Source: a virus. Taken from it: DNA of 23,199 nt. Below, piece after piece: positions 2-20,525 of the stretch. Under the pieces are notes generated by a model that was not told the DNA's origin, ran no database searches, and saw only the letters and a program-made list of their open reading frames with translations. The stretch lies in the IMG/VR virus record IMGVR_UViG_3300025687_000344, positions 1 through 23,199 of that record; one strand, written 5' to 3'. The translations under genes were made by a program, and so were the position numbers. The first letter of the stretch is position 1; each line of letters opens with the position of its first letter.

Positions 2-520
2 GCAAACTATAAGCATCGAATCATTCCAGCATTACAGAGCAGGTGCCAAGTATTTAACATAACCCATGACGTAGAGGATGTAACCAGACGCATGGCTCAT
101 ATATTGAATGAGGAAAATATCGTATGTGGTGAAGATGACTTGAAACAAATTGTTAGGGATAATTTTCCAGATCTTCGTAAGACCATCAATACGATTCAGA
201 AACTTACAAATAATGGTAAGATTGAAATTGATGATAGCTCTAACGTATCCAAACTTGTCGCTGATTTGTATAAGCTTATTGAGCATGGACATGTTCTTAA
301 GTGCAGAAAGCATGCGATAAAGAATGAACATGTGTTTAATAATGATTACCCTGTATTGATTAAAGAGATGTTTAATTACATCGATGGCTTGCCATGCATT
401 CAAGAAGATAAGAAAAAGTCGCAGCTTACTACTTGCCACGACTTTATCTATAAATCAGCGTTTTGTATGGATCAAGAAATCAACGCATATGCATGTTTTA
501 TTACTTTAAGTAAATGCTAG
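2..520 (+). CDS. Clamp-loader small subunit (T4 gp44-like AAA+ ATPase), C-terminal part, 5' end outside window
   Basis: This is the 3' part of a DNA polymerase sliding-clamp loader ATPase. The frame is open from base 2, so the ATG at 92 is internal rather than the start. The visible peptide begins with RIIPALQSRC (residues 6-15 of the fragment). It contains the SRC motif, whose Arg is the arginine finger in RFC/gp44-type loaders. The segment FPDLRKTI (55-62) then matches the sensor-2/helical-lid region of T4 gp44. The nucleotide-binding half lies upstream of the window. In the family, this subunit forms the ATP-driven complex that opens and loads the clamp (gp45 in T4). Its Arg codons include CGC, CGT and CGA, unlike the AGA-rich late genes that follow. 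The stop codon overlaps the convergent gene's stop by 20 bp. Assignment rests on motif recognition. Confidence 0.85.
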   Translation, partial: ANYKHRIIPALQSRCQVFNITHDVEDVTRRMAHILNEENIVCGEDDLKQIVRDNFPDLRKTINTIQKLTNNGKIEIDDSSNVSKLVADLYKLIEHGHVLKCRKHAIKNEHVFNNDYPVLIKEMFNYIDGLPCIQEDKKKSQLTTCHDFIYKSAFCMDQEINAYACFITLSKC

Positions 521-1121
521 TGTCGGGCATATTACCGCCACCGATTGCTTGAGCATCATGAGAAGGTGCACCAAACTGATCTGTCTTTGCATTAACATTA
601 TGCAATTCTCTATCATTGCCTTGTGCCGGTTGTTTTTCTGAATCAGGTAAGTAACCGGCGTCTACTTGAGATTTTAATGGATTTTGCCCTATGTAATCGT
701 CCTCAAATTCTAACGTATCTGGGTCAATTTTCGTTTTGTTGGGCCTTACCATACTATCTGGCACTGGCATTCTGTTTGGATAAACATCTACTGGTTCAAA
801 TATATCATCCGGAAATTGATAAAAACCATCATATCTACCTGGTGCTGTTTCTTGTGAAACGGTGACAGAAAACTCTCCACTAGAGTTATCTGTATTTCCG
901 GGTTGGTTTGAAGGGTATTTATTTTCTATACCAGATACTCTTAAATTAAGGTCGCTAGCTAATAAATCATCTAGTTTAGCTCTGTACTCTGGGCTTAATT
1001 TTTTATATCCTTCACTAGATTTGTAATCATCTCTTACTTTTACAAGATCTCCGGTTAAAAAACCACCTCGAGTATATCTAGATACGTAAGATTCATAAAT
1101 CTTATTGAATTTCTTTTCCAC
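501..1121 (-). CDS. Unrecognised 206-residue protein, late-type expression
   Basis: I do not recognise a named family. The N-terminal 60 residues are charged and probably helical, and include the run TRGGFLTGDLV near residue 17. Residues 70-200 are rich in Pro, Asp, Asn and Gly, with little hydrophobic content, and look disordered. It runs convergent to the clamp-loader gene, overlapping it by 20 bp, and divergent from the baseplate operon. The chosen start is GTG at 1121. An ATG two bases upstream is out of frame, and a late octamer CATAAATA lies exactly 5 nt before the GTG. That promoter and the neighbouring virion genes suggest a late, perhaps structural, protein, but this is inference only. 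Confidence 0.7.
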   Translation of the reverse strand: MEKKFNKIYESYVSRYTRGGFLTGDLVKVRDDYKSSEGYKKLSPEYRAKLDDLLASDLNLRVSGIENKYPSNQPGNTDNSSGEFSVTVSQETAPGRYDGFYQFPDDIFEPVDVYPNRMPVPDSMVRPNKTKIDPDTLEFEDDYIGQNPLKSQVDAGYLPDSEKQPAQGNDRELHNVNAKTDQFGAPSHDAQAIGGGNMPDTSIYLK

Positions 1122-1126
1122 ATAAT

Positions 1127-1134
1127 TATTTATG
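1127..1134 (-). promoter_or_regulatory. Late promoter octamer for the 501-1121 gene
   Basis: Read on the minus strand the sequence is CATAAATA, followed by ATTAT and then the GTG start at 1121. It differs from the T4 late consensus TATAAATA only at the first base. T4 late transcripts begin about 6 nt after the octamer, which places +1 at the start codon. Confidence 0.65.
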
Positions 1135-1159
1135 CTGCAAAGTTAAAATAAAACTCATT

Positions 1160-1167
1160 ATTAAATA
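1160..1167 (+). promoter_or_regulatory. Late-type promoter octamer for the baseplate operon
   Basis: ATTAAATA lies 7 nt before the ATG at 1175, in the 53-bp gap between divergent genes, back to back with the minus-strand octamer at 1127-1134. It is a near match to the T4 late octamer. No Shine-Dalgarno sequence is visible between it and the start. Confidence 0.5.
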
Positions 1168-1174
1168 TATATGT

Positions 1175-1663
1175 ATGTCAAATATTAGGTTAACGAATTT
1201 ATCAAAACCTGAAGATGTAAAATATAAAAAACAATTTACTTATGCTGATGTAAATTTTGATTTTGTTTTTTCTGATGTAGATCAAAAAGAATTAAATTCA
1301 TCAGTAAAAAATAATGATTTAAAAGCTAATTATGATTTAGGTGCTATAAAAAATTCTATAGTAAATATATTTACTTCCTTTCCGGGAGATAAAATTTTAA
1401 ATCCTAATTTCGGTCTTAATTTAAATCAATTTTTGTTTTTGCCTTGTAATAAGGAAACAGCTAGGTTAATAGGTGAAACTATACAATCTCAAATAAAACT
1501 ACAAGAACCTAGAGTAAATTTAAAAACTGTTAATGTTGTAGCTAATATTAACAATGACGAATATGACATAACTATGTTGTTAGAGGTACCATTTATAAAT
1601 AATAATAACAGCATTAATTTTAAAGCATTATTAAATTCAACAGGAATAAATTTTTATAACTAG
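1175..1663 (+). CDS. Baseplate wedge subunit, gp25-like
   Basis: This 162-residue protein fits the GPW/gp25 family, whose members help build the wedge of contractile-tail baseplates (T4 gp25) and are conserved in type VI secretion. The central segment has the family layout: an amphipathic helix with IKNSIVNIF, then FPGDKILNPNFGLNLNQFLF, an invariant-looking pattern around the start of the core. The EPRV motif follows near residue 112 and a C-terminal beta strand closes the domain. Length is close to the family norm plus a roughly 45-residue N-terminal extension. It is first in a long virion operon, and the gp6-like gene follows after only 2 nt. No Shine-Dalgarno sequence precedes the start; a late octamer lies 7 nt upstream. 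Confidence 0.85.
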   Translation: MSNIRLTNLSKPEDVKYKKQFTYADVNFDFVFSDVDQKELNSSVKNNDLKANYDLGAIKNSIVNIFTSFPGDKILNPNFGLNLNQFLFLPCNKETARLIGETIQSQIKLQEPRVNLKTVNVVANINNDEYDITMLLEVPFINNNNSINFKALLNSTGINFYN

Positions 1664-1665
1664 CA

Positions 1666-3492
1666 ATGGCAACTAAATCAGATTTTAATTTACAGCAAGA
1701 CGGTTACGTTTCTTTTGATGCAATAAGTCTAAAAGACCTTATCATTGAAAGAATGAATGAACAACAAATTTTTACTGATCAAAACTACGAGGGTAGTAAT
1801 TTATCAGCATTGATTGATATCATAGCATACTCTTATCATGTATTAATATATTATCTTAATAAAAATTCATCTGAAAGTAATTTTTCGCAAGCAGAAATAT
1901 ACGAAAATATAAATCAAATAGTTAAAAGTATAGATTATAGCCCTACTGGTCCTCAAACAAGTAATTTATCTTTCCAAGCTGTTGCTAATAGTAATCTTGC
2001 TGTTGACTTTTATACCATACCTCGTTATAGTTATTTTTCTTTTGGAGGAACATCTTATAGCTTTACCCAAGATGTATCTTTTCAAAAGACTGTTAATGGT
2101 GTCGAATCTTTAGTTGATTTAAACAACAATACTCTTTTATACAATGGTCAATTTGTAGAATATCCTTTATTTACTGCCTTAGGTGAAAATTTTGAAACAG
2201 TAACTCTAGCAGCTACAGATGAAAATATTGATTTTTATATCGACAACAACAATATTGATGTATACGTAAAAGATAATAATCAAAGCAGTTGGGTTAAATG
2301 GGAAAGAACCACTTCATTGTATTTGGAAAATAGTTCAGCTAAAAAATATTCTGTTAGATATAATGAAGACGAAAAATATGAATTAAAATTCGGCAATAAC
2401 ATTACTGGTAAAAGGCTTACTGAAAATAGTTTAATTGCTATATATTATTTAAAATCAGATGGTCAAGCCGGTCAAGTTAGTAAAAATACAATTAACAACC
2501 AACCTTTATATTTTTATAATACAACTTTGTTTAATGAAATTAAAACTGATGTTATACCTTCGGGTTCAAATATCATATCTATTGAAGAATCTGCTAATTT
2601 AGTTTTTAGTAATGATTCGTCTTCCACTAATTTTAAAACAAAAGAGTCTGTTGAAGAAATAAAACAAAATGCGCCTAGATTGTACAATTCACAATATAGG
2701 TTAGTTACAACTGAAGATTATAAAAATTATATTAATAAGAATTTTAGCAATTGGATAAATTCGGTAGAGGTTGTTGATAATAATCAATATATAAATGGTT
2801 ATCAAAATTATTTCTTTAATATAGGATTACAGCAACCCAATGCAGATTCTAGAGTTTTGTTTAATCAATTAAATTTTTCCAATTCTACTAATTTTAATAA
2901 TGTTTATGTTTTTGCTGTACCTAATAAAAATATACAAAACAGTTTAGATTTAAGAACTAACTACTTATCTGTATCGCAAAAAAATGCATTAACAATTCTT
3001 TTAGATGAAATAAAAATATCTAACATTGATATTGTCGTATCTGATCCAGTATATACAGAAATTAATTTTGGAGCTAGTAACTCTCCTGATGACTACCTTT
3101 TTGTTGAAACAGTAGGGGATGAATCATATTTGTATGTTGAAGTGGAAAGAAATGCTAGAAGAGATTTAGATTCAGTTAAAGATGATATTATAACAATTTT
3201 TCATGAATATTTTGAAAATAATAATATGACATTAAATCAACTTATATCTCTTAAAGATATATCACAAAGTATATTAGACGTTGAAGGTGTATCTACATTT
3301 TCTACTAGAAGAGAACATAAAGGTCAAACAATAATTGATAACTTACTTTCGTTTATTGTTTTTAACCCTATATACCCTGATAATGATTTCGATATTACAA
3401 AACAAGATATTAAATTTAAGTATTTTCAATTTGGGTATTTTAAAAATTTACAATCTATTAATGATAAAATTCAAGTTATTAGACAATCATGA
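1666..3492 (+). CDS. Baseplate wedge subunit, gp6-like (baseplate J family)
   Basis: This 608-residue protein resembles T4 gp6, the wedge protein that forms the continuous ring of the baseplate. The N-terminal signature is visible at about residues 41-85: the helix YEGSNLSALIDIIAYSYH, then a segment of the type seen in gp6/J proteins that ends in DYSPTGPQTS. A second typical element, APRLYNSQYRLVTTEDYKNY, lies near residues 336-355. The C-terminal quarter has the expected alpha/beta domain with HEYFENN. It follows the gp25-like gene by 2 nt, the pairing expected of interacting wedge subunits, and its TGA overlaps the ATG of the next gene (ATGA). It has no promoter or Shine-Dalgarno sequence of its own, so it is probably expressed from the operon promoter at 1160. 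Confidence 0.85.
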   Translation: MATKSDFNLQQDGYVSFDAISLKDLIIERMNEQQIFTDQNYEGSNLSALIDIIAYSYHVLIYYLNKNSSESNFSQAEIYENINQIVKSIDYSPTGPQTSNLSFQAVANSNLAVDFYTIPRYSYFSFGGTSYSFTQDVSFQKTVNGVESLVDLNNNTLLYNGQFVEYPLFTALGENFETVTLAATDENIDFYIDNNNIDVYVKDNNQSSWVKWERTTSLYLENSSAKKYSVRYNEDEKYELKFGNNITGKRLTENSLIAIYYLKSDGQAGQVSKNTINNQPLYFYNTTLFNEIKTDVIPSGSNIISIEESANLVFSNDSSSTNFKTKESVEEIKQNAPRLYNSQYRLVTTEDYKNYINKNFSNWINSVEVVDNNQYINGYQNYFFNIGLQQPNADSRVLFNQLNFSNSTNFNNVYVFAVPNKNIQNSLDLRTNYLSVSQKNALTILLDEIKISNIDIVVSDPVYTEINFGASNSPDDYLFVETVGDESYLYVEVERNARRDLDSVKDDIITIFHEYFENNNMTLNQLISLKDISQSILDVEGVSTFSTRREHKGQTIIDNLLSFIVFNPIYPDNDFDITKQDIKFKYFQFGYFKNLQSINDKIQVIRQS

Positions 3493-5786
3493 TTGAACAA
3501 AATTCAGGTTATTGGAAATATAATGTATATAATGTATTTGATACATTATCTCTTTCCTCTTACGCATTAGAACAAACTCCTTTAAAATTTATACCTACCA
3601 AATTTGAATATGATGAGTATAGTGATTTTTATATAATTTGGAATTTTGGAGATGGTTCGCCTGTTTATCAAGGATTGTCAGCATCTCATTCATTTTTTTA
3701 TCCCGGAGAGTATAACGTTACTATGACAGTTATGGTTTCTTCAGGTAATACAGAACTTAATTCTTTTAATCAAAAAGTAACCATATATGATTTTATACCT
3801 AATACTTTTAGTTTCAAACAACTTTCAGGTGTTAATTCAAAAAGTTTATTTTTAACTGCTGGTGTTTATTCTGAACAATTGTCTATTGAAAGATTTAATA
3901 GTATACAAAGTTATGGAAACCCATATACTTTCTTTTTAAACGCAAGTGGAAGTAACAGTTTGTTTTATGACAGGAATAAACTTTTAACCGAACCTTATTC
4001 TTTTTTATTACCTACGCATAGGTTTGTAAAGAGAGAAAAAATAGGTAAATATTTTAGTGATTTAGTAATTGATGAAATTACAACAACCGATACTAATCTT
4101 TATGGCAAATTAGACGAAACATCATTAGTAGTTCCAACTTCATCTGATGATGTTAACTCGTTTTTTGTCGGTACAAGCGGGGTTGAAAGTTTTTATTTCG
4201 TTGATGATTTTGTAAATGAAAATCCTTACTTTTTATTAGCTACTTCTTCCACTGTCAATTACCCTGATAATTATACTAAAAATTATAATATAGATTATAA
4301 GTTTAACTTACCTATAAAAAATTCTAATACATCTTATTATAAAATTTCATCTAACGCTTTTAAGAAAGCAGATTATTTTAGTATAACTTCAAATGGTTTA
4401 GATGGTCAAGGTTTTGATTTACCCACTTTTAATATAGGCACGACAAAGTTTATTAATCAAATGATAAGTTTTGTTGTAAAATGTAAATATAGTAATTTAT
4501 ATGATTGCAAAAATCAAATTAATACTTTCACTTTTGATACCTCTCCTTGGATTAGAAATGGGGTACAAATATTTTTAATATCTCCGTCTAATAATAATAA
4601 TTTGGGCGATATTACCGAATATGTTACAATAGATAAATCAACTTATGAAAATTATCAGTACGGTTGGTTGAAAGGTAATATTATCATACCCCCTATCAAT
4701 ACTTTAAATTCTGTATTAAGTTCTAATACATTAGTAGCTTTAAGTGCTAAAGGTGAGCTTTTAGATAATGAAGGGTTTACCTATTTTATATCAGGTAGTA
4801 GTTCACCTTTTAGATTGTTTGATATAAATTATAATAAAATCGCAAAAATTAATGAAAATTTTGACTCTGCAAATTATTTAAAAGGGTTATCTTATCAACC
4901 TTCAATATATAAAAGACCTGAAATATTTGATACTTTTTTTGGCACCACATTAGGTACACTTAGCTCAAATGTTGATGCTATAGGTAAACGTACTTATGAA
5001 AAAACTTCTAACTTTGTAAAAAATACTGTTAATATAGACACCTGCGATATTCAAGCTTTGTTTGGTTTTGCTTCAGAGTTTAATGTAGATTTAAATAGTT
5101 ATGCTTCTAAAAATTTAGTCATAAATTACCCACCGGAAGTTTCTAGATTAGTTAATTTATTTTCAATCAAAAAGTCTTTACTTTTTGGTAAAGTTAATCA
5201 ATATAACTTTGATTTTAAAAATACATATAATTTAAATCAACCTTTCAATAATATATACGAATCTGCAAATTATTTAACAGAAGGAAAATCAGGTGGGGTT
5301 AATTTAGGACCTCAAATTGACATTTTATCTGGAATTATAAACAAAGAATCTAATTATATTGTAGGGTATGAACAATTTTCTGATTCATATACTTTATTAA
5401 GAACAAATATTGAACACATAAAAACATCAACCTACCCTCTAAGTTCATTAGATAAAAACTGGGGCTGGGGTTTAGTTGTACCTGATAGTTTTTATACTGA
5501 AAGTTTATCGACATATAAATTATCTAATTATTATACATTTTTTGAATATATACCTGTTGTTCAAGGAAACATAGTAAACAACATTATAAACTGGAATGAT
5601 ACTTATAATACAACATTAAACATTTATCCTAATAATTTATCAGCAACTCACACTTCAGCATATTTATCTAGTTATAGATTTACACCATTAGAAACATGGG
5701 ATTCTACAGGAGGGGTAATTGATCAAAACTTAACAAGACAAATTAATTTAGGGTTAGAATTATTATCCTCTTACAATCTTGTATAA
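3489..5786 (+). CDS. Tail/baseplate protein with N-terminal PKD domain
   Basis: This is a 765-residue structural protein. Residues about 31-102 form a PKD (Ig-like beta-sandwich) domain, recognised by WNFGDGSP (51-58) and HSFFYPGEYNVTMTV (67-81). PKD domains in phage virions usually serve as surface or adhesion modules. The remainder is Asn/Ser/Tyr-rich and beta-like. A helical section around residues 490-600 contains NYPPEVSRLVNLFSIKKS, resembling segments I associate with phage tail proteins but cannot assign. It follows the gp6-like gene with an ATGA overlap, the position of gene 7 in T4. However, I see no clear gp7 similarity, so function beyond virion component is inferred. Confidence 0.7.
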   Translation: MIEQNSGYWKYNVYNVFDTLSLSSYALEQTPLKFIPTKFEYDEYSDFYIIWNFGDGSPVYQGLSASHSFFYPGEYNVTMTVMVSSGNTELNSFNQKVTIYDFIPNTFSFKQLSGVNSKSLFLTAGVYSEQLSIERFNSIQSYGNPYTFFLNASGSNSLFYDRNKLLTEPYSFLLPTHRFVKREKIGKYFSDLVIDEITTTDTNLYGKLDETSLVVPTSSDDVNSFFVGTSGVESFYFVDDFVNENPYFLLATSSTVNYPDNYTKNYNIDYKFNLPIKNSNTSYYKISSNAFKKADYFSITSNGLDGQGFDLPTFNIGTTKFINQMISFVVKCKYSNLYDCKNQINTFTFDTSPWIRNGVQIFLISPSNNNNLGDITEYVTIDKSTYENYQYGWLKGNIIIPPINTLNSVLSSNTLVALSAKGELLDNEGFTYFISGSSSPFRLFDINYNKIAKINENFDSANYLKGLSYQPSIYKRPEIFDTFFGTTLGTLSSNVDAIGKRTYEKTSNFVKNTVNIDTCDIQALFGFASEFNVDLNSYASKNLVINYPPEVSRLVNLFSIKKSLLFGKVNQYNFDFKNTYNLNQPFNNIYESANYLTEGKSGGVNLGPQIDILSGIINKESNYIVGYEQFSDSYTLLRTNIEHIKTSTYPLSSLDKNWGWGLVVPDSFYTESLSTYKLSNYYTFFEYIPVVQGNIVNNIINWNDTYNTTLNIYPNNLSATHTSAYLSSYRFTPLETWDSTGGVIDQNLTRQINLGLELLSSYNLV

Positions 5787-5793
5787 TTAAATA
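5786..5793 (+). promoter_or_regulatory. Late-type promoter octamer inside the virion operon
   Basis: ATTAAATA begins on the last base of the preceding stop codon and lies 6 nt before the ATG at 5800. It could give an internal late start that boosts the downstream structural genes. AT-rich context lowers certainty for this single site. Confidence 0.45.
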
Positions 5794-5799
5794 ATAATA

Positions 5800-8700
5800 A
5801 TGGCATCTACTATTGAAAGATTTAACAAATATACGTTAGAAAAGTCTATTACTTTTTTAGGTAATGTTTCTACTGCAGTAGATTATGACGATCCATTAGA
5901 TTTTAAAGAATGGTTGGGTTATTTTAAAGATACTAACATTTCATTACAAACATATCAAAATTCATACAAAAATTATATTAATAGTTGGAATTATGTAAAA
6001 AATACATTTATAAATACCCAAAAAAATTATGTAAATGAATCTTATAAAAATTTAATTAAAGAAATTTCATTAGATGTACTTACTGCGCAAGAACTCAACT
6101 TTATAAAAAACGTTGATGTTAACAATAAAGAACAAGTTGAATCATTAATTCCATTAGTTTCGGATAAGATTAAAAATCTTTCAGATTATTATAAAAATTT
6201 TAGAGAAAAAGTAAAAACTCAACCTAAAAGAAATAATTTTAATTCTTCTAAATTTGGAATTAAAAAGTTTTTATATCAACTTATTTTAGATATAGTAAAT
6301 TTTAATGCTGAAACGGTTAACTTATTAAATGTATACAATAAAGATATTAATTTTTTAGAAAAAAATATAAAATTTAATATTGAAAATTTATATGATATAT
6401 ATGATAGCTATTTCGATGTTTCATATTCCTTACCTGCATCGTCTTATACTTACGGAGGTTCATTAAGAACTACCCAATGGTCAAGCAATATAAATTATTT
6501 TGATTACGACCTATTTTTAAATTTTAATAATTCAACTATAAGATTACTTTCATCTTATAATTATGTTATTGAAGAATTTTTACCTAATTTATCTTTACCT
6601 GTTCAATTAAACGAAAATAGTTTTAATTATTATAAAAATAAAGATTTTATAAATCAAGTAAACACTCTATCTATAAATGATTTAAATCTTAATAACAACA
6701 AATCATTGATAGAAAAATATATAGGGTCTGATTGGTATTATTTATCAACAGGTGATACTCTTTCCTATACAGTATCTGGTAATTTTCTAAAGGCTAAAAA
6801 TAAATCCCTTAATTATATAAATCGTATTAACCCTTCTACTGCTACAGTACCAAGTACAGCTACATTAATAAGAGATAAAAATTTAGGAGGATTTTTTCTA
6901 CCAAAATATGAAGGTATGTTACTGTATACGTCTTTTGACTATACTTATACTTTAGATAATTCAAAGTTATCTACAAATACTGCTTATTATTTTCCAGATC
7001 CTAATTTATATATTAACACATTTGGTAATTCAATTTACAATAAACCGTATGGTATTTTTACTGTAAATGAAAATGCATATGTAAATGTTTATTCAAAGTC
7101 TAATTCATTTTCATTTGGTTATATAAATGATTATTCCTATTTGTTAAACTTTCATGGATATGAAAATTTAGAAGAAAAAAATCAAATTGATTCATTAGGG
7201 GTTTCCAGAAATACAGATAGTGTTACATTTTTTAAAGGTAAAAAAGACGATATATGGAAAAACAATGATATATATAATGTAACAAATAAAGCTAAATTTA
7301 CTATTGACGAAAGACAAAATGAATTGTTAGTAGGTGTTAAAGATAGCACTAACAGTTTTTCTGATATATATGGTAACAATTACGGTGTATATAAATCAAC
7401 TACACGACCTATCTTTAACAGTTATAATTCTACATATGTATCAACTTCTCAAACGTGTTTGTTTTTAAGTAATGGGTTATTTCTATCAGGTAGTAATGAT
7501 TTTAATTATAGTGTACCAGATGTTGATTCATCTTTTATAATACCAGGTAAAATTTTTACAACAACAGGGTTATCATTATGTTCTTACCCTACATTTACTA
7601 ATGCAGGTAATGAAATATTAAGTTACGGTGCATTTAAAATGCCTTGGTGTTTCAATACAGGTGTAAATTATAAAAGAGGTACTTTTTATGATGGGGTATA
7701 TTTTACAGATAAGAATGGGGTACCATTACCCGATAACCCTAAAACCGAATACCCTAATTGGTCAGAAGATAATCAAACTTTATATTATAATGTATATTTA
7801 GAAGGAGGAGCTAATAATGAGTTAACTTACCCAACATATATAAACCCGGTATCATTCTTATATAGTTACAATAAAAATATTGATTGCGGTACATTTTTGT
7901 TTAACGGTAATAATCCATTTGAAAGAATGGTTACATCTAATGTATATGCTAATATTTCTTCTTATTCAACTACAAATAATGCTTTTTCATCTACATATCA
8001 GACAATACCAAATATAAATGAAGCAAATATATATACTAAAAAGTATCTATTATCAGCTTCACCTTATGTAAGAAATTTAAGCAATAAAGTATTATCATTA
8101 TCAGATTCTCTCAGTTCTATATTTTTAAAATATAAAAACATAGAGAATATATATTCTGAACTTAATAATAATATTATTAATTTTAATATTGTCTATGATA
8201 TAGGTGTATTTGAAACTGAAAATTATTTAGTAATAGAAAAATTACTTTATAATTATACAACTAATGTATTTTATGCTAGTGATAATAACCCAACTTATAT
8301 TACTAGATACAAATATAATCCTAGATTAGAAAAGTTTGGTAATTTCTTTTACCATGAAACTTCTAATACTTTACTTTTATATAAAACATCATTATTAGAT
8401 GTAAATGTAAATTCAAATTATAAAACTATATACCCTGAAATTTATAAATTAGATATTAATAATTTTGAATTGAAAAAAATATTTCCTTTTGTAAAATCAA
8501 ATATATATAATAGATTAAGTTCTTATAGTTTTAGATCTTATATAAGCCCGGTATATTATAATGTTTATTTTAATAATGATGATATGATTTATAATCTTTA
8601 TGAGATAGACAGACCTAATATATCTTATGATACCGATACAGATACATATTCATTTGTTATTAAAGGCAAAGATTTATCTAATGGTTTAGTAATATATTAT

Positions 8701-8889
8701 CAAACTTACAAATATATGTCAGGTGTGTTTACTAACAAAATAAACGAATGTTACTTTCAAAACTCTACATTTAGAGATGAAAACTATTCAAATGCTTACC
8801 AACTCCCTATAATTAGCTATACTCAATACCCAGGCACTAAAACAAATACTAGAGTTTCTTCGGAAGGTGTTTTAAAATTAGGAGAATAA
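5800..8889 (+). CDS. Large virion structural protein, unrecognised (1029 residues)
   Basis: No named family is recognised. The first 230 residues are helical and Lys/Asn-rich and may form coiled-coil segments. From about residue 230 the composition is dominated by Tyr, Ser, Asn and Thr in short alternating stretches typical of beta-structured phage tail proteins. The last 250 residues contain several strand-rich repeats (for example ENYLVIEKLLYNY) that might form a propeller or sandwich. Its length is close to T4 gp7 (1032 residues) and it lies two genes after the gp6-like gene. I do not see gp7 sequence similarity, so the match is only suggestive. Operon position and composition support a tail or baseplate component. 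Confidence 0.65.
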   Translation: MASTIERFNKYTLEKSITFLGNVSTAVDYDDPLDFKEWLGYFKDTNISLQTYQNSYKNYINSWNYVKNTFINTQKNYVNESYKNLIKEISLDVLTAQELNFIKNVDVNNKEQVESLIPLVSDKIKNLSDYYKNFREKVKTQPKRNNFNSSKFGIKKFLYQLILDIVNFNAETVNLLNVYNKDINFLEKNIKFNIENLYDIYDSYFDVSYSLPASSYTYGGSLRTTQWSSNINYFDYDLFLNFNNSTIRLLSSYNYVIEEFLPNLSLPVQLNENSFNYYKNKDFINQVNTLSINDLNLNNNKSLIEKYIGSDWYYLSTGDTLSYTVSGNFLKAKNKSLNYINRINPSTATVPSTATLIRDKNLGGFFLPKYEGMLLYTSFDYTYTLDNSKLSTNTAYYFPDPNLYINTFGNSIYNKPYGIFTVNENAYVNVYSKSNSFSFGYINDYSYLLNFHGYENLEEKNQIDSLGVSRNTDSVTFFKGKKDDIWKNNDIYNVTNKAKFTIDERQNELLVGVKDSTNSFSDIYGNNYGVYKSTTRPIFNSYNSTYVSTSQTCLFLSNGLFLSGSNDFNYSVPDVDSSFIIPGKIFTTTGLSLCSYPTFTNAGNEILSYGAFKMPWCFNTGVNYKRGTFYDGVYFTDKNGVPLPDNPKTEYPNWSEDNQTLYYNVYLEGGANNELTYPTYINPVSFLYSYNKNIDCGTFLFNGNNPFERMVTSNVYANISSYSTTNNAFSSTYQTIPNINEANIYTKKYLLSASPYVRNLSNKVLSLSDSLSSIFLKYKNIENIYSELNNNIINFNIVYDIGVFETENYLVIEKLLYNYTTNVFYASDNNPTYITRYKYNPRLEKFGNFFYHETSNTLLLYKTSLLDVNVNSNYKTIYPEIYKLDINNFELKKIFPFVKSNIYNRLSSYSFRSYISPVYYNVYFNNDDMIYNLYEIDRPNISYDTDTDTYSFVIKGKDLSNGLVIYYQTYKYMSGVFTNKINECYFQNSTFRDENYSNAYQLPIISYTQYPGTKTNTRVSSEGVLKLGE

Positions 8890-8896
8890 GTAAATA
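8889..8896 (+). promoter_or_regulatory. Possible late-type promoter octamer before the lectin-like fibre gene
   Basis: AGTAAATA starts on the last base of the upstream stop codon and lies 8 nt before the ATG at 8905. It is a weaker match to the late octamer than most others in this window. Confidence 0.35.
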
Positions 8897-8904
8897 TATA
8901 TACA

Positions 8905-11028
8905 ATGCCTAGGATTCAAAACTTAAAAAATACAAATCTTTTACTAGATACAAAGTATGATTTATCTAGAGATATTGTTATATCTGCAGAGTTTGCTTTT
9001 TTTGGTGATTCTAATTTAGGAGGCGAAGGTTTTTGTGTTTTCTTGGTTGATGCAAATAAAACTTCTAACACTATTAATAATGGAAGTCCTGGACCCGGGT
9101 TGGGGTATGCTCCTTCAGATAACAAAGTTACTTATAAAAACAATAATATATTTGACGGAGTTGAAAATTCACTACTAGGTATTGGGTTTGATGCTGTAGG
9201 TAACTTTGCAGCTCCTTTAGGTTATACCCGCTCTGGTAATGAAATTACCGGGGGTCTTCCAAAGCCTAATGCAATTACTTTAAGAAATGGTGATCTTGGA
9301 GATAAAAATTATAGTGTTATTTCTTCTTCTGATAATTTGTCGTCTTTTGGTATTAATTTATATCAGTACTATTATGGTTCTATAACACCTACCCCAACTA
9401 ATACATTAACCACAACACCTACAATTACGGTCTCACCTTCAAATACAGTAAATTTCACTCTTACCCCAACGGTTACATATACTCCAAGTATCACTAAAAC
9501 TAATACCCCTACAAAAACTAGATCTCTTACTTTATCCCCTACAGTTTTTACTACTAGTACTAACACCCCAACTTGTACTAATACTATAACTAGAACCCCT
9601 ACCCAGACCGGTTATTTTCCTGTAAGAAAAGCGTTTAGAATTGTTATTAGTGACTTTGGTAAAACTATTCAAATATATTTGCGTAAAAGCAATTATGATA
9701 ATTTTATTTTAGTTCATGAGGTTGGAAATGTTGCCTTAAGTTCACCAGATAATAATCAAGTAAAGGTAGGGTTATCTTACTGCACAGGTACGCTTACGTC
9801 TAGCTTATATTTGTATAATTTTAATGTTAACGGTTCAGGAGTACAAAACACACCTACCCCTTCTGCAACAAAATTTTTAACCCCTACAAAGTCTAATTCC
9901 CCTACCTGTACAGCTACTGCGACACTTACTAAAACAACTAATGCATCACCTACACTTACTCCAACTCAAACCCCAACGGTAACATATACTAATACAATAA
10001 CCCCTACAAGTTTTGTAACACCAACAACAACTAGAACAAACACACCCACATTAACTAACACACCTACAATTACTCAAACCCCTACTAATTTTTCATCTCG
10101 AACACTAACAATATCTAAATCAAAACCTGGAGTTACATCTGAGCCTACACCCACACCTACACATACTAGTACGCCAACTTATACTTCAACTTTAAAAATT
10201 GACTCTAACCCTAATGTGATAAATTCTTTTACCGACACGTTTAGTTTAGCACCTGATGCTTGTTATAAATTTGTTTTTGAAAGTGATTATTTAGAAGCTT
10301 CTGATGCAGGTATAGCTGTTAATGTTTTGATTAACAATGCAAGAAGAGGTTTTAATAATAATCAAAATAATTTACTAAACTATCAATCAACTGATAACCC
10401 AACTGGTGTTACATCTAATTGGCATTATTCTAAATTTCAATCTTTTTTCTTTAATGGAGATGTTGTTACTGCTCAAACAGTAGGAGGAACAGCTGAAAAT
10501 GGTCAAAATTATTGGATGAACATTCCTTTTATTGAAATTAATAATAATAATAAAGACCCTAGAAAAGGTGTTCGTTCTGGAATATACCAAGCTTTAAATT
10601 CATTAGTTAGTACAGGAAGTACCTTAAATGAATCTCTTATTTATATTAACAAAAAAGTTGATGATAATTTTATATGGAATGTAGCTGGGTTATCTGAAGA
10701 CTATAAAATTCCAATCTATAATTCTGATACTAGTAACTACTATTTTAATTCTTTTGATTTATCTATTAACCCTGCAAATATACTTTATGATTTTGACTAT
10801 ATAACTGATTATCAAAATAGGCAAACTTTCTTAAGTAAAACTAATAGTTATAGGATTCAACCTAATAATAGATATATATCTATTAATGACGGCCAGTTAG
10901 ATTACACTTTTAGTTTCTGTACTGAATTAATTCGATATTGGCCTACAGTAATTAATTCATCAGGAGGAAACATAGAACGCCCTGGTTTTTGGGGCGCTAG
11001 ATTAACCTTATTTATTAACGTAGCATAA
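8905..11028 (+). CDS. Fibre-like protein: lectin-like domain split by Thr-Pro-rich segments
   Basis: This is a 707-residue probable host- or glycan-binding virion protein. Residues 1-150 look like the first half of an L-type lectin (legume-lectin/concanavalin-like) fold, with GGEGFCVFLVDA (39-50), a Gly-Pro-rich loop ending GLGYAPS, and LLGIGFDAVGNF (90-101). Residues 161-236 are a mucin-like Thr-Pro-rich stretch. Residues 240-310 (FRIVISDFGKTIQIYLR and following strands) look like the second half of the same fold. A second Thr-Pro segment covers 315-430. A distinct C-terminal domain of about 275 residues follows, with no recognised family. Its TAA overlaps the next start (TAATG), so the two fibre-like genes are translationally coupled. 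Sequence-based lectin assignment is moderate. Confidence 0.65.
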   Translation: MPRIQNLKNTNLLLDTKYDLSRDIVISAEFAFFGDSNLGGEGFCVFLVDANKTSNTINNGSPGPGLGYAPSDNKVTYKNNNIFDGVENSLLGIGFDAVGNFAAPLGYTRSGNEITGGLPKPNAITLRNGDLGDKNYSVISSSDNLSSFGINLYQYYYGSITPTPTNTLTTTPTITVSPSNTVNFTLTPTVTYTPSITKTNTPTKTRSLTLSPTVFTTSTNTPTCTNTITRTPTQTGYFPVRKAFRIVISDFGKTIQIYLRKSNYDNFILVHEVGNVALSSPDNNQVKVGLSYCTGTLTSSLYLYNFNVNGSGVQNTPTPSATKFLTPTKSNSPTCTATATLTKTTNASPTLTPTQTPTVTYTNTITPTSFVTPTTTRTNTPTLTNTPTITQTPTNFSSRTLTISKSKPGVTSEPTPTPTHTSTPTYTSTLKIDSNPNVINSFTDTFSLAPDACYKFVFESDYLEASDAGIAVNVLINNARRGFNNNQNNLLNYQSTDNPTGVTSNWHYSKFQSFFFNGDVVTAQTVGGTAENGQNYWMNIPFIEINNNNKDPRKGVRSGIYQALNSLVSTGSTLNESLIYINKKVDDNFIWNVAGLSEDYKIPIYNSDTSNYYFNSFDLSINPANILYDFDYITDYQNRQTFLSKTNSYRIQPNNRYISINDGQLDYTFSFCTELIRYWPTVINSSGGNIERPGFWGARLTLFINVA
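9385..9612 (+). repeat. First Thr-Pro-rich (mucin-like) coding segment
   Basis: This stretch encodes residues 161-236 of the 707-residue protein, with repeated TPT, TPS and TNTPT units. The repeats are degenerate at DNA level (mixed ACA/ACT/ACC and CCT/CCA/CCC codons). They interrupt the lectin-like domain. Confidence 0.8.
9847..10194 (+). repeat. Second Thr-Pro-rich (mucin-like) coding segment
   Basis: This stretch encodes residues 315-430 of the 707-residue protein. It is richer in TPT/TNTPT units than the first segment and probably forms an extended linker to the C-terminal domain. Confidence 0.8.
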
Positions 11029-13346
11029 TGCAAAACAACATTTACATAATCGGTACAGATAAAACAGTTTTAGATTTAGGTATTACATCCGGTTATTATT
11101 ATATTAACCCGGTTAATCAATCTAGTAATTTTTATACTAGTTCGCTATTAAGTATGTCTTTTAATCCGAATGCTTCTTATTCTGAAAAGTTAGACTGTGG
11201 GTCATTTACAGATGATTATTTAAATTATAAAGTTACAACTAAACTAACTTACGAAGCAGGTAACCTTAATAAAGAATATAGTGAATTTTATTCTTTTAAT
11301 TTTATATTATCTGGTATAAATGATACAACTAATACAATATCAAAAATAGAATTTGAACCTGTTGATAATGAAATTATAGTAAAAAGTTTTGATAGTGATG
11401 TTACTTTTGATTCTTCTTATGTTTATAATACCTTGTTAGGTGATAAATTTAACAATCCTAAATATTTTACATATAATTATACATATAGTATTAACAATGG
11501 GCAATCCACTCAAACATTTACTCCTAAATTTTCAGCATATAGGAAAGATGGTTTAATTGATGAGTATATTTTATATGTAAATGTTAGTCAGGATAGTATT
11601 AATAGTTTAGCTGATGATATAAAACTTATTGATACACAAATTTTACCTATTTCATCTAATGATTGTTTATTTCAAGTTGAATTGAGTAATCCAAATTATG
11701 TTAATAATTTGGTTTTAAGAAGAAATATAACACCTACACCTACTAGGACAGTTACCCCATCACTTACCAAAAAAGCATCTCCTACAAGAACACAAACTCC
11801 TACAAACTCTAATACAAGAACTGTCACGCCTACAAAAACGCCATCAAGAACAGCTCGCCCTACGCCTTCACATACAAGGACTTGTACCCCTACTTTAACT
11901 CAGCAACCTACACCTTATATAACCCCTACACCCACACCTACGTTAACTAACACCCCTACATCAACTTTATTTAGAGTTCCAATTCCTATAGATGAACCAG
12001 ATTTACCGAATTTACCTTGTAACGGTCTAGATTATACAGCTAGAAGAATTAGATTATATTTTGATTTTACTTCTGATCAATTTGCTCCTGACACTATTTT
12101 TTCACATGATAAATCTTACTTTGCTATAAAAATAGGGGTAAAATATTCTTATGCAGGAGGTTCTTCTGAGCAGTATTATTTTAATGATTTAATTATATCA
12201 GATTTTTATCTTAATAGATTTTTTAGAGATTTACAAGTTAACGGTACAACAAGCAGAGTATATAGTGTAGATTTGTTTATACCTATAAACATGTCTGTAA
12301 AATATTTAACTCCTGTTTATTATTTTGATGATAATGTAATTTCAGACCCCGGTATCATATTTAAAAATAGTGAAGGGGAGATTGACCCTAATTATATTGA
12401 AGATTTTTTAAATTCCGATAATGTAGATTCTTTTAAATTTAATTGTTTTACCAGTACAGGTGACAAAAATAATTATACTCCAGGAGATCCTCCCGGTGGA
12501 GGTGATCCCGGTGGAGGTGGTCCCGGTGGAGGTGATCCCGGTGGAGGTGGTCCTGGTGGAGGTGGTCCCGGCCCCGGTATAATCATACCGGACCCAATAA
12601 TTCAAACAAAAGGTCAATATATAATATCTTTTCAATGGTCCTTAACTCAATATAGATTATATTGTAATTTTCCTAAAACTTCTGAAAATGAAGAATGGCT
12701 TAATATTGCTCCTACAGGAAGATTTCTTTCTACATTAACTGTTTATTTAGTAGAGGTGCCTTTAAATTATAATTTAAATGGTTATAAATTAACCGAAACG
12801 AGATATAATAATGGTAATCCATACACTTGGTATGCGAAATCTCCATATGACGTGTTTGATAATAACGGGGTAAACTTGAAAGTATTAGACGGCCCATATA
12901 CTGTTACTAAAGAACTTTTAAATGAAAAAATAGCTCCTGTAGAGGGTCAGGTAAATAAAGTAAGTACTAAAATGCTAAATGATATTTATTATAATAAAAT
13001 TTTTGATGGAAATAGAAGTATTAAAGTTTTTTATTATTGGAATCAAATTGCCCAACCTTATGGTGATGACGAAAAACGATATCAAGAATGGAAAGAAATG
13101 AATACTTCTGGTATAAATTATTGTTATGTTTTGTGGGATAATAATGAAGGTTCTAAACCTGATCCAGATTACCCTGATTTTAAAACTCTTCCTTCTTATT
13201 CTAGACCTTTTGTACAAATTAACGGTTTAATAGATTTTATCCCTATAGAAGTTTATGATAATAATAAACTATACGACGGCCAACCTATTTATAATTTAGA
13301 AGAATCTGCACATGCAACCCTCATATATAATTTTAAAAATGAATAG
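11028..13346 (+). CDS. Fibre-like protein with Thr-Pro linker and Gly-Pro-rich hinge
   Basis: This 772-residue protein is coupled to the preceding fibre-like gene by TAATG. The layout is an N-terminal beta-rich domain of about 230 residues, a Thr-Pro-rich linker (235-314), and a middle beta-rich domain. A Gly-Pro-Asp hinge follows at about residues 484-520, built from five 15-bp DNA repeats. The C-terminal domain (about 250 residues) includes several Trp and Tyr residues. No catalytic motif is recognised. The alternation of globular domains with extended or flexible linkers, and the shared Thr-Pro style with its neighbour, suggest both are parts of one tail-fibre or baseplate appendage. The gene's end overlaps the next ATG by 8 nt. 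Confidence 0.65.
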   Translation: MQNNIYIIGTDKTVLDLGITSGYYYINPVNQSSNFYTSSLLSMSFNPNASYSEKLDCGSFTDDYLNYKVTTKLTYEAGNLNKEYSEFYSFNFILSGINDTTNTISKIEFEPVDNEIIVKSFDSDVTFDSSYVYNTLLGDKFNNPKYFTYNYTYSINNGQSTQTFTPKFSAYRKDGLIDEYILYVNVSQDSINSLADDIKLIDTQILPISSNDCLFQVELSNPNYVNNLVLRRNITPTPTRTVTPSLTKKASPTRTQTPTNSNTRTVTPTKTPSRTARPTPSHTRTCTPTLTQQPTPYITPTPTPTLTNTPTSTLFRVPIPIDEPDLPNLPCNGLDYTARRIRLYFDFTSDQFAPDTIFSHDKSYFAIKIGVKYSYAGGSSEQYYFNDLIISDFYLNRFFRDLQVNGTTSRVYSVDLFIPINMSVKYLTPVYYFDDNVISDPGIIFKNSEGEIDPNYIEDFLNSDNVDSFKFNCFTSTGDKNNYTPGDPPGGGDPGGGGPGGGDPGGGGPGGGGPGPGIIIPDPIIQTKGQYIISFQWSLTQYRLYCNFPKTSENEEWLNIAPTGRFLSTLTVYLVEVPLNYNLNGYKLTETRYNNGNPYTWYAKSPYDVFDNNGVNLKVLDGPYTVTKELLNEKIAPVEGQVNKVSTKMLNDIYYNKIFDGNRSIKVFYYWNQIAQPYGDDEKRYQEWKEMNTSGINYCYVLWDNNEGSKPDPDYPDFKTLPSYSRPFVQINGLIDFIPIEVYDNNKLYDGQPIYNLEESAHATLIYNFKNE
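11730..11969 (+). repeat. Thr-Pro-rich coding segment in the 772-residue protein
   Basis: This stretch encodes residues 235-314, rich in TPT, TPS and TRT units. Unlike the segments in the neighbouring gene it carries many Arg and Lys residues (TRTVTPTKTPSRTARP), so this linker is positively charged. Confidence 0.75.
12495..12569 (+). repeat. Five tandem 15-bp units encoding GGGDP/GGGGP
   Basis: The unit GGTGGAGGTGATCCC alternates with a one-base variant (GGTCCC, giving GGGGP); the fourth unit ends in CCT. It is a GC-rich minisatellite in an otherwise AT-rich operon and encodes a flexible hinge. Unit number could vary by slippage. Confidence 0.85.
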
Positions 13347-13482
13347 TGAAGAAAAAAATAAAATAACTGAAGAAGAAAAAAGGAAACAAATTGAAGAAAT
13401 GTGGGCTAAATATGAACAAAGTAAACTTTCTGATTCTGATGATGAAAACGATATATTTTATTTGTTAGATAATATTGATTAA
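13339..13482 (+). CDS. Small acidic/coiled-coil protein, 47 residues
   Basis: This short gene starts inside the end of the fibre-like gene with the 8-nt overlap ATGAATAG. Residues 1-30 are rich in Glu and Lys and look like a single charged helix (EEEKRKQIEEMW). Residues 31-47 are acidic. No family is recognised. Translation is probably coupled to the upstream gene. The overlap start and clean stop at 13480-13482 support a real gene, but it is short. Confidence 0.55.
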   Translation: MNSEEKNKITEEEKRKQIEEMWAKYEQSKLSDSDDENDIFYLLDNID

Positions 13483-13494
13483 AATAGTATTTCT

Positions 13495-13502
13495 TTTAAA
13501 TT
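13495..13502 (+). promoter_or_regulatory. Weak late-type promoter candidate
   Basis: TTTAAATT lies 6 nt before the ATG at 13509, in a 26-nt gap. It keeps the spacing of the other late sites but departs from the octamer at the last base, so it is tentative. Confidence 0.3.
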
Positions 13503-13508
13503 ATTTTA

Positions 13509-13769
13509 ATGAGCAATACTTATTCTTTACATTTACTTGAAAAACTACATTTATCAAAACTAGTATATTTTAATAAAGATTTTAATGAAGTGTATTCATG
13601 GTTTGGAGGTCATGAAATAAAAATCTTTAATTATATTGGTGAAGAAATAGGCCACTCAACTATTATCAATAATAAAACAAAAGCAGATTACCAATTGACT
13701 GATAACATTGAAGAAAAAGATGTTCAGCTGTCAATTGATGCTATTGTTAGAAGCCTTTATAATGGATAA
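13509..13769 (+). CDS. Unrecognised 86-residue protein
   Basis: No family is recognised. The protein is mixed alpha/beta, with aromatic-rich segments around VYFNKDFNEVYSWFGGHE and a helical C-terminus. It has no membrane segment or signal peptide. A weak late octamer lies 6 nt upstream. The stop overlaps the next ATG by 8 nt (ATGGATAA), the same type of overlap as at 13339-13346, which suggests co-translation with the following gene. Confidence 0.6.
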   Translation: MSNTYSLHLLEKLHLSKLVYFNKDFNEVYSWFGGHEIKIFNYIGEEIGHSTIINNKTKADYQLTDNIEEKDVQLSIDAIVRSLYNG

Positions 13770-13986
13770 TATTGAAGAAGAATTTTTATCTACCCTAGAT
13801 CTTGTATTTGAATTAGATGATTTAGAAGAAATAGGAAATGTCGTTTCATTATTTTTATATAATAATAAAGTGATGCCGGGTACTGAGTTATATGAGGAAA
13901 TGACCGCTCAGTTCTACGCTTGTATGAATGAAAAACTTAATATCAGAATTATAAAAAAATTTAGAAAACTATTAGATGAATTATGA
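13762..13986 (+). CDS. Unrecognised acidic helical protein, 74 residues
   Basis: I place the start at the ATG at 13762, giving MDNIEEEF. The longer in-frame start at 13708 would lie deep inside the upstream gene. The peptide is predicted mostly helical, acidic in its first 30 residues (ELDDLEEI) and basic near the end (RIIKKFRKLL). It overlaps the upstream gene by 8 nt and the next by 11 nt. This tight overlap chain indicates one translation-coupled unit. No function can be assigned. Confidence 0.6.
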   Translation: MDNIEEEFLSTLDLVFELDDLEEIGNVVSLFLYNNKVMPGTELYEEMTAQFYACMNEKLNIRIIKKFRKLLDEL

Positions 13987-14773
13987 TGATTTAAACATAT
14001 CGCAAAATAAATTAAACAATATATTTTGCGAATACGGAAAAGATAAATATTGCTCATTAACAGAATGGGTAAACGGTAAAGGTGTTGATATTACATTTGA
14101 AAATAAAGAATATATCAATTTAGATTATAAAAAAGCATCAGCTCTTCTTACATGTTTATTCAATGCTAGTATTTATAAAAGTATTCCACCTCATTTAAAA
14201 AATGATTCAGTATCTATAGATACTTTATTTTCACAACAAAATTTATATCACGACGATCCTTTTATCCAAGATATAAAAAATGAATATTTTAAACAACAAC
14301 AATCTCCTCAACCACCTCAACAACAAACACCTCCTCAACAACCACCTCAACAACCACCTCAACAACAAGCGCCTCCTCCACAACCTCCTCAACAACAAGC
14401 GCCTCCTCCACAACCTCCTCAACAACAAGCGCCCCCGCCTCAACAACAAGCTCCTCCTCCTCAACCTCCTCAACAAGAAGAGCCTCCTGCATTTGAATTA
14501 GTTACTCCCCCTTGTAAACGGTTCAGAATTAAAAAAACAAAAGTAAACAAAGACAAACTTATTGATGAAATATGCAATTTTGCTGATTATATAGATAGGG
14601 AATATGAAGCTGTTTATGATTTGGTGTATAGTCATGAATGTAATAGAGATTCAAGCAAAGAAGAAAGAGTTCTTCAAACAGAGCTAGAAAAAAAATTAGA
14701 TTTAGTAAACTACATAAGAAATTTATTTCAGAGTTGTGTAATGTACTGTTTAGAACCTGATTCTGATAAATAA
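13976..14773 (+). CDS. Pro/Gln-repeat protein, 265 residues, unrecognised
   Basis: The protein has three parts: a folded-looking N-terminal domain (1-105), a Pro/Gln-rich low-complexity segment (107-171) with QQQAPPPQPP repeats, and a basic then helical C-terminal domain (180-260). The last begins with CKRFRIKKTKVNK and may contain a coiled coil around residues 228-250. No family is recognised. The low-complexity arm suggests a spacer, such as in a tail-associated or internal virion protein, but this is speculative. It overlaps the previous gene by 11 nt. Its last codons contain the late octamer of the next gene. Confidence 0.65.
   Translation: MNYDDLNISQNKLNNIFCEYGKDKYCSLTEWVNGKGVDITFENKEYINLDYKKASALLTCLFNASIYKSIPPHLKNDSVSIDTLFSQQNLYHDDPFIQDIKNEYFKQQQSPQPPQQQTPPQQPPQQPPQQQAPPPQPPQQQAPPPQPPQQQAPPPQQQAPPPQPPQQEEPPAFELVTPPCKRFRIKKTKVNKDKLIDEICNFADYIDREYEAVYDLVYSHECNRDSSKEERVLQTELEKKLDLVNYIRNLFQSCVMYCLEPDSDK
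14294..14488 (+). repeat. Pro/Gln-coding low-complexity repeat
   Basis: Two exact tandem 30-bp units occupy 14361-14390 and 14391-14420. They are flanked by degenerate CAACCTCCT/CAACAACAA units on both sides. The third unit is partial and partly C-rich. The stretch opens spurious long frames on both strands, which should not be read as genes. Confidence 0.85.
14765..14772 (+). promoter_or_regulatory. Late promoter octamer overlapping the upstream stop codon
   Basis: GATAAATA spans the final codons and the first two bases of the stop codon of the Pro/Gln protein gene. It lies exactly 5 nt before the GTG at 14778. It differs from TATAAATA only at the first base. Confidence 0.6.
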
Positions 14774-14777
14774 CTAT

Positions 14778-15035
14778 GTGTGGGACTTTTTTAGATTTTT
14801 AATTATATGGATTAGTGATAATTTATCTATTCCTTTTTGGTCAGTAGGACATATTCATTTATCTATTTCTGATTACCAAATCTCTACTAAAATATTAGCT
14901 AGTTTAATTATGCATATTATAGTAGGATTTGGTTTTTTTCTGTCTTATAAAGATCATTTAAATGAAAAAAAAGCATCACAAAAAAGAAATTACGAAACTT
15001 TAAAGTTTTATATAGATACAAATGAAAAAGATTAA
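14778..15035 (+). CDS. Small membrane protein, 85 residues
   Basis: The start is GTG at 14778. An ATG two bases upstream is in another frame that stops after eight codons, and a late octamer sits 5 nt before the GTG. The N-terminus (FFRFLIIWI) is hydrophobic. A clearer membrane helix lies at about residues 38-57 (ILASLIMHIIVGFGFFL), followed by a Lys-rich cytoplasmic-type tail. Such small late membrane proteins in phages are often holins or lysis accessories, but there is no sequence match to prove this. It overlaps the next gene by 14 nt. Confidence 0.6.
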   Translation: MWDFFRFLIIWISDNLSIPFWSVGHIHLSISDYQISTKILASLIMHIIVGFGFFLSYKDHLNEKKASQKRNYETLKFYIDTNEKD

Positions 15036-15260: not shown

Positions 15261-15623
15261 ATGTACGAATATAAAGCAAAAATTATAAGAGTCATTGATG
15301 GTGATACATTAAAAGCTTTAATTGATGTAGGTTTTAATATGCACCACGAAGCTGTAATAAGATTAAATGGAATCGATTGCCCTGAAACAAGAACTAAAGA
15401 TATTAAAGAAAAATCTAAAGGGTTAGAAGCTAAAGAAAGAATGATAGAATTGTTAGATCAGTGTAATTATGAAGTAAATATTAAATCTCATGGTTTGGAT
15501 AAGTATGGAAGATGTTTAGCTGAAGTTATTTCAATCACTCCTCATGGAGAATATAAAAATTTAAACCGTATACTTTTAGATGAAGGTCTAGCAAAAGACT
15601 ATTTTGGTGGAAGAAAAGATTGA
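15261..15623 (+). CDS. Staphylococcal-nuclease-like (thermonuclease) enzyme
   Basis: This 120-residue single-domain SNase-fold nuclease probably cleaves DNA and/or RNA with Ca2+. Family motifs are in order: VIDGDT (11-16, metal-binding Asp), RLNGIDCPE (34-42, active-site Arg and Asp), GLEAKERM with the likely catalytic Glu56, and DKYGRCLAEV (80-89, second active-site Arg84). The C-terminus NRILLDEGLAKDY matches the family's closing helix. No signal peptide is present, so it would act in the infected cell or be packaged. The late-type octamer 5 nt upstream suggests late expression. Its small size is close to the minimal catalytic domain. Confidence 0.88.
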   Translation: MYEYKAKIIRVIDGDTLKALIDVGFNMHHEAVIRLNGIDCPETRTKDIKEKSKGLEAKERMIELLDQCNYEVNIKSHGLDKYGRCLAEVISITPHGEYKNLNRILLDEGLAKDYFGGRKD

Positions 15624-15927: not shown

Positions 15928-15956
15928 TTGATTAATATTCGGAACGTCCCTATTAT
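15928..15956 (+). promoter_or_regulatory. Sigma70-like promoter with operator-like inverted repeat
   Basis: TTGATT, 17 bp, TATTAT. The -10 box is 7 nt before the ATG at 15964. The 11 nt abutting the -10 box are CGGAACGTCCC (15940-15950), an inverted repeat GGA-N3-TCC also found before the DUF932 and ArfA-like genes. Confidence 0.7.
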
Positions 15957-20500: not shown

Positions 20501-20525
20501 TTTTAAGGTTTTTCAACTTTATGTG

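Follow-up and report, generated by a model that had tools for sequence, protein, structure and literature searches.

The DNA analysed here, called the window throughout, is a 23.2-kb piece (23,199 nucleotides, G+C 0.30) of the IMG/VR virus record IMGVR_UViG_3300025687_000344. Two of its genes begin with GTG, and both carry a sequence of the T4 late promoter type exactly 5 nt ahead of that codon. Based on the comparisons described below, it was concluded that a late promoter combined with a leaderless AUG or GUG start very probably explains both genes, and that the out-of-frame ATG which begins two bases before each GTG and overlaps it (the −2 ATG) is most likely accidental. The GTG as the true start of both genes is well supported by related sequences. 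The messages themselves are likely leaderless, a property inferred from the DNA, as are the transcription start and the part played by gp55 in the phage. At the left of the window, the end of a clamp loader gene is followed by gp25- and gp6-like baseplate wedge genes, on which grounds the source was assigned to an uncultured T4-like phage.

The first GTG gene (501..1121, minus strand, 206 codons), referred to as the 1121 gene, is divergent from the gp25 gene. Its late-promoter-like octamer CATAAATA occupies 1127..1134 on the minus strand, the spacer ATTAT follows at 1126-1122, and the GTG at the predicted +1 spans 1119..1121. The overlapping ATG (1121..1123, minus strand) opens a frame that stops after 22 codons. 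The second gene (14778..15035, plus strand, 85 codons), the 14778 gene, probably codes for a membrane protein, judging by its translation. Neither product had a PHROG match. The octamer GATAAATA of the 14778 gene (14765..14772, plus strand) overlaps the TAA stop codon (14771-14773) of the gene at 13976-14773 and is separated by the spacer ACTAT (14773-14777) from the GTG at the predicted +1 (14778..14780, plus strand); the frame of the overlapping ATG (14776..14778, plus strand) stops after 8 codons. In both genes the octamer occupies the place of a Shine-Dalgarno (SD) site. A shared ATGTGG-like layout had been ascribed to the two genes in a preliminary description. The octamer, the 5-nt gap and the GTG with its overlapping ATG were indeed found in both, but the 14778 gene reads ATGTGTGG rather than ATGTGG.

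Both octamers agree with the T4-type late octamer TATAAATA, in which the first base is variable. The T4 late octamer is described as spanning −13 to −6 in an excerpt of PMC1524935, therefore +1 falls on the start codon when the gap is 5 nt, as the preliminary description had supposed for the two GTG codons. Part of a review (PMC2988020) likewise puts the late box upstream of the start, at a distance of about one helical turn. We propose that a gp55-type sigma factor would read NATAAATA late promoters placed 5 nt before the start codon, that RNA polymerase would make mRNAs that open directly with the start codon, AUG or GUG, and that the host ribosome would start on this 5'-terminal codon with neither a leader nor an SD site. 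The RNA of both GTG genes of the window would then begin on the G of the GTG. The −2 ATG, lying at −2 to +1, would be outside the transcript from the late promoter and would have arisen by chance in the AT-rich spacer.

The layout was assayed first within the window. A looser form of the octamer, NWTAAATA, occurred at 33 sites, and six of them had an ATG or GTG at exactly 5 nt that opened an open reading frame (ORF) of at least 50 codons (4 ATG and 2 GTG). The other spacings from 0 to 29 nt yielded 0, 1 or 2 such starts each. With 14 permuted cores, no more than 2 starts were recorded at 5 nt, and for GTG alone the 2 real cases stood against a maximum of 0.

The analysis was extended to the relatives of the gp6-like protein, of which at least 80 loci were found, and the resulting comparison set consisted of 82 contigs including the window (1.61 Mb). 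The gp6 identity was 97% for L001, 67% for L003 and 24-30% for cyanophages among the matches listed. ORFs were called by length rather than by a trained gene finder, and identical contexts were taken once. At spacings of 3 to 9 nt after the strict octamer NATAAATA, ORFs of at least 50 codons opened with GTG in 0, 0, 73, 3, 0, 0 and 0 cases and with ATG in 4, 1, 106, 68, 26, 11 and 10 cases. Only 5 starts were TTG (1, 0, 0, 1, 0, 0, 2) or CTG (0, 0, 1, 0, 0, 0, 0). Hence 73 of the 76 GTG starts stood at exactly 5 nt; they belonged to 13 gene families, 6 of which also had ATG at that distance. The looser octamer gave 164 ATG and 81 GTG at 5 nt versus 100 and 7 at 6 nt (Fisher p 2e-8). At the 82 gp25 loci, GTG was found 49 times at 5 nt and once at 8 nt, and ATG 18 times at 5, 4 times at 6 and twice at 7 nt; 8 loci were untied to an octamer, some of them cut by a contig end.

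Twelve shuffled octamers were examined in an earlier pool that also held G004 and G005, two records of ~30% gp6 identity that were left out of the 82-contig sets and had weak spacing-5 peaks only (2 and 4 ATG). At spacing 5 the shuffled octamers gave at most 20 ATG and 6 GTG, versus 96 and 60 for the real one. Some of them peaked at other spacings (up to 42 ATG and 22 GTG), probably owing to in-register overlap with the real motif. The reversed octamer was dropped as a control, as it overlaps the real motif, and the shuffled octamers and permuted cores were used instead.

The 1121 gene retained its start in close relatives. All 11 loci fetched with its protein (84-91% identical; close to each other, 7 of them on contigs shared with the gp6-relative set) read CATAAATA-ATATT-GTG and have no −2 ATG, and the same was observed in the L003 ortholog, whose match over residues 4-206 is 89% identical. 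L002 is more distant, and there an ATG takes the position of the start, in the form AATAAATA-ATTGT-ATG. Across 75 loci of the family, all 19 GTG starts were at 5 nt, and ATG was found at 5 (3 loci), 6 (29), 7 (14) and 8 nt (3); 7 loci scored as untied have an ATG 9 nt after the octamer. The −2 ATG accompanies 10 of the 19 GTG genes of this wider family, the window included (e.g., L024, L026 and L040). It is nevertheless missing in the nearest relatives of both window genes, and the idea that it forms a fixed part of the layout was not upheld.

For the 14778 protein, a single-sequence search returned one weak match, and an alignment search gave at least 80 loci, mostly distant family members. 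The gene is 67% identical in L008 (locus L148; L148, L003 and L008 share one record). In L148, L149 and L151, the relatives nearest by identity, the GTG is kept without a −2 ATG, and ATTAAATA or, in L149, ACTAAATA lies upstream of it.

The gene upstream of the 14778 gene in the window is co-directional and ends at 14773, 4 nt before the GTG, and the octamer overlaps its stop codon. This arrangement would suit a translation of the 14778 gene coupled to its neighbour on a polycistronic mRNA. Such coupling, which would concern the 14778 gene only, was judged unlikely. In L008, L149 and L151 the co-directional neighbour of the window is replaced by a divergent gene, with 33 bp between it and the 14778 ortholog, and yet the GTG and an octamer-like motif are kept; upstream coupling therefore cannot explain the use of GTG there. 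The three loci are a cleaner test case than the 14778 gene of the window. The divergent neighbour is a large GTG-start gene (VHDKVIVGINGGHN; L008 2349-4070, L149 1234-2967 and L151 1231-2958, all minus strand), which by eye appeared carbamoyltransferase-like, and in L008 a variant octamer, GATAAGTA, also read by eye, apparently lies 5 nt before it. At its other end, the 14778 gene is overlapped by a small unlisted ORF (15022-15252, plus strand, 76 codons, MKKIKSFKKFVEDEDETVFSGPGEEE...) that is conserved in L008 (4351-4611), L149 and L151.

The preliminary description had regarded the overlapping ATG as a neat internal test of leaderlessness, as an mRNA beginning further upstream should use it. 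This test proved to be weak. In bacteria the ribosome does not scan an mRNA from its 5' end, therefore an upstream AUG need not be chosen; moreover, a read-through mRNA of the co-directional array that holds the 14778 gene would include the −2 ATG.

Being AU-rich and near the start codon, the octamer could in principle be a translation signal within a longer, SD-less leader rather than a promoter, with the GTG lying inside a leadered mRNA. Several observations make this improbable. The GTG spacing is almost confined to a single base, and the motif is identical to the T4 late octamer and has the same distance to the predicted +1 (PMC1524935, excerpt). Octamer-tied genes were enriched at divergent gene pairs: the upstream neighbour was divergent for 58 of 153 tied genes versus 75 of 438 untied ones in six records. 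Of 22 related records searched, with the window not among them, 6 matched the gp55 family (phrog_234), and each of the 4 records that reach 100 kb or more was one of these; two of the six matches contain one TGA. Finally, a parallel class of genes was found with the arrangement TATAAT-N6-RTG (48 cases in seven records, some mutually orthologous), and TTG stood at the −35 place in 33 of these 48 versus 108 of 1440 other TATAAT sites (Fisher p 1.5e-24).

Several features expected of leaderless genes were found as well. A promoter −10-like element lies at a fixed distance from the start codon. SD-like tetramers preceded 3 of the 153 octamer-tied starts in the six records, which is the shuffle level (2.7% expected), and 64 of the 438 untied ones (8% in shuffles). 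At spacing 5 the first codon was ATG (106) or GTG (73), with no TTG and one CTG. The same ATG/GTG pattern would be expected if RNA polymerase simply preferred a purine at +1.

The evolution of the start region was followed on a quickly built tree of gp6 with 80 rows, in which 15 of 67 inner branches were open. The −2 ATG is present in 33 and absent in 14 of the 47 gp25 genes that have GTG at 5 nt, and its state changed at least 8 times among them; the gp25 start codon itself changed at least 4 times (48 GTG, 24 ATG). In the 1121 family, where 10 genes have the −2 ATG and 9 lack it, this state changed at least 2 times and the start codon at least 3 times. The start position is anchored while the −2 ATG comes and goes. 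The proposal that the GTG is the start and that its position is tied to the promoter was borne out by this, by the near-fixed distance and by the ATG/GTG flips among orthologs. The −2 ATG alone is not beyond chance: its presence at two of two GTG genes had a probability of ~0.08, because 47 of the 164 ATG genes at 5 nt have AT at −2/−1, and of 0.11 when averaged over families. It was also considered as a shared functional element and rejected. Its raw share is higher at GTG genes, and 39 of the 43 cases there came from the gp25 and 1121 families; after family averaging the excess was gone (0.20 for GTG in 18 families versus 0.33 for ATG in 52), and the element is labile on the tree. An accident is the most likely explanation.

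If the RNA began 3 nt after the octamer, on the A of the −2 ATG, its end would read 5'-AUGUG, where the AUG would recruit the ribosome and the GUG frame would be reached by slippage or re-initiation. AUG is reported to be the stronger leaderless codon in E. coli (PMC4633059, excerpt), and the −2 ATG is frequent in the gp25 relatives (33 of 47). This scheme was considered very improbable, as only 4 ATG codons opened at least 50 codons at spacing 3 versus 106 at spacing 5, the nearest orthologs of both genes lack the −2 ATG, its gain or loss recurred at least 8 times in gp25, and its frame was over within 9 codons in 32 of 39 cases (7 ran for at least 20). That the octamers and the ATGTG arose accidentally in AT-rich DNA, and the two genes share nothing, has hardly any probability left: the −2 ATG is within chance (0.08-0.11), but the octamer with its 5-nt gap far exceeds it in the window as well as in relatives, and the 1121 gene conserves this arrangement.

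Several results weigh against a late promoter with leaderless starts in its simplest form. In the nearest 14778 orthologs (L148, L149 and L151) the gap is 6 nt, therefore their mRNA may carry one extra base, and in two distant relatives, L156 and L176, the GTG lies 4 nt after GATAAATA and has the −2 ATG (in a third, L202, an ATG lies at 4 nt). Under the pattern used, 56 of 61 distinct contexts of the 14778 family were untied to an octamer, L149 and L150 among them; L150, third by E-value among the matches listed and 51% identical to the 14778 protein, starts at an untied ATG. A read-through mRNA of the co-directional array would be leadered. ATG genes were found at 5-8 nt, and at 9 nt in seven loci of the 1121 family, so that a strict rule of start codon equal to +1 holds nearly only for GTG. 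The −2 ATG was in raw excess at GTG genes (43 of 81 versus 47 of 164 ATG genes, p 0.0002), which speaks against pure chance. The gp55 family was not detected in 16 of the 22 records, all below 80 kb, nor among the 20 proteins scanned against PHROGs from the window, itself a 23-kb fragment. In E. coli a leaderless GTG is reported to have <10% activity (PMC4633059, excerpt). Lastly, the contigs and rows are related, and the counts are not independent.

The layout was compared with known systems. The T4 late promoter (gp55/gp33/gp45) has the octamer NATAAATA in common with the window lineage, whose larger members carry the gp55 family. In the 69 of 169 kb of T4 examined, none of 35 strict octamers had an ATG at 5 nt and one had a GTG, inside gene 9, whereas in the window lineage the start codon is often at the predicted +1. 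None of 24 strict octamers in 150 of 183 kb of cyanophage S-SSM4 showed the 5-nt start layout. In contrast, 9 of the 45 strict octamers of the cultured Pelagibacter phage HTVC008M (Kyanoviridae) precede an ATG by exactly 5 nt, and the 7 of these ATGs that fall within its first 50 kb are annotated starts. Thus at least one marine T4-like phage in culture has the late-leaderless layout too, whereas the examined parts of T4 and S-SSM4 lack it. HTVC008M differs from the window lineage in having ATG only, with no GTG at 5 nt, and it has no marked TATAAT-N6 peak (2 ATG and 1 GTG of 275 sites). Its leaderless appearance was computed in this analysis; in excerpts of two pelagiphage papers, 'leaderless' occurs only in the title of a cited gene-finder paper.

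Thermus phage phiYS40, which we take not to be a gp55/octamer system, was likened to the window lineage by description only. Most of its middle and late mRNAs are reported to be leaderless in part of a review (PMC3594737), and phage transcripts are often so according to an excerpt of the AR9 phage paper (PMC5312081); the leaderless idea is therefore not new for phages. Among the literature matches listed, no title or abstract opening joined leaderless genes with T4-like late promoters, and their combination with GTG was not met there either. In mycobacteria, a 5'-end ATG or GTG is described as necessary and sufficient and TTG and CTG as poor (PMC4633059, excerpt). Those genes are cellular, whereas in the window lineage the 5-nt position after a phage late promoter is taken almost only by ATG or GTG; by analogy, the near absence of TTG and CTG fits the mycobacterial rule. 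The geometry of the TATAAT-N6-RTG class is the same as that of bacterial TA-signal leaderless genes (TANNNT ~12 bp upstream), which an excerpt of PMC3160421 describes for bacterial genomes and not for the window phage lineage.

Further promoter-tied genes were found in the window, all on the plus strand unless stated. The gp25-like baseplate wedge gene (1175..1663) has an ATG 7 nt after ATTAAATA, the gene for which a GTG 5 nt after the octamer is found at 49 of 82 loci. An ATG 5 nt after the octamer begins an endonuclease-family gene (15261..15623, TTTAAATA) and the genes at 20539..21135 (GTTAAATA), 21132..21422 (minus strand, AATAAATA) and 21998..22390 (GTTAAATA). Four genes have TATAAT-N6-ATG, three of them with a −35 element: 16257..17240 and 21468..21989 (sigma70-type, TTGATA-N16-TATAAT-N6-ATG), 17248..17712 (sigma70-type, TTGAAA-N16-TATAAT-N6-ATG) and 18890..19795, without a clear −35. 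The listed ORF starts at 20521 and 21453 are probably wrong, as the promoter position favours ATG 20539 and ATG 21468. The listed start at 15928 is probably wrong as well, judging by the relatives L149 and L151, which begin at MKC, i.e., at ATG 15964.

The gene at 21132-21422 (minus strand) weakly matched an Rz-like spanin family (E 3e-4). The match would point to a Gram-negative host; it could also be a coiled-coil chance match. As host clues, WhiB was found in 0 of 24 records searched and psbA in 0 of 22. Two scans of genome_contigs returned no gp6 relatives, window positions 1175-3492 had no DNA match to phage records, and no tRNA was found within the 23.2-kb window. At 8905-13346 and 13976-14773, two large proteins contain Thr/Pro-rich repeats, a Pro/Gln-rich tract is present, and the local GC skew is strong.

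In the four longest records, the genes tied to either promoter type by a slightly looser rule numbered 51 of 176, 62 of 174, 29 of 110 and 36 of 113 (26-36%). It seems probable that in this lineage the gene starts have been shifted to where transcription begins in both kinds of promoter (gp55 late octamer plus 5 nt; sigma70 TATAAT plus 6 nt). Roughly one quarter to one third of the genes would then look leaderless, with GUG as a regular 5'-terminal start that takes almost no leader and AUG tolerating one to four extra bases. If this is true, the exact N-termini of many genes in an uncultured phage group follow from where the promoter lies, and gene callers that seek SD sites or prefer ATG may miscall such genes. 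In the gp25 gene of G013 (L103-L109 joined; 114679), for example, an in-frame ATG formed by the last octamer base and TG lies six bases before the GTG, and it is likely an annotation trap if the mRNA is leaderless. The natural variation in dozens of relatives, namely ATG or GTG, presence or absence of the −2 ATG and a gap of 5 to 9 nt, would make the tolerance for 5'-terminal AUG versus GUG testable, and HTVC008M offers a cultured laboratory entry point for the ATG form.

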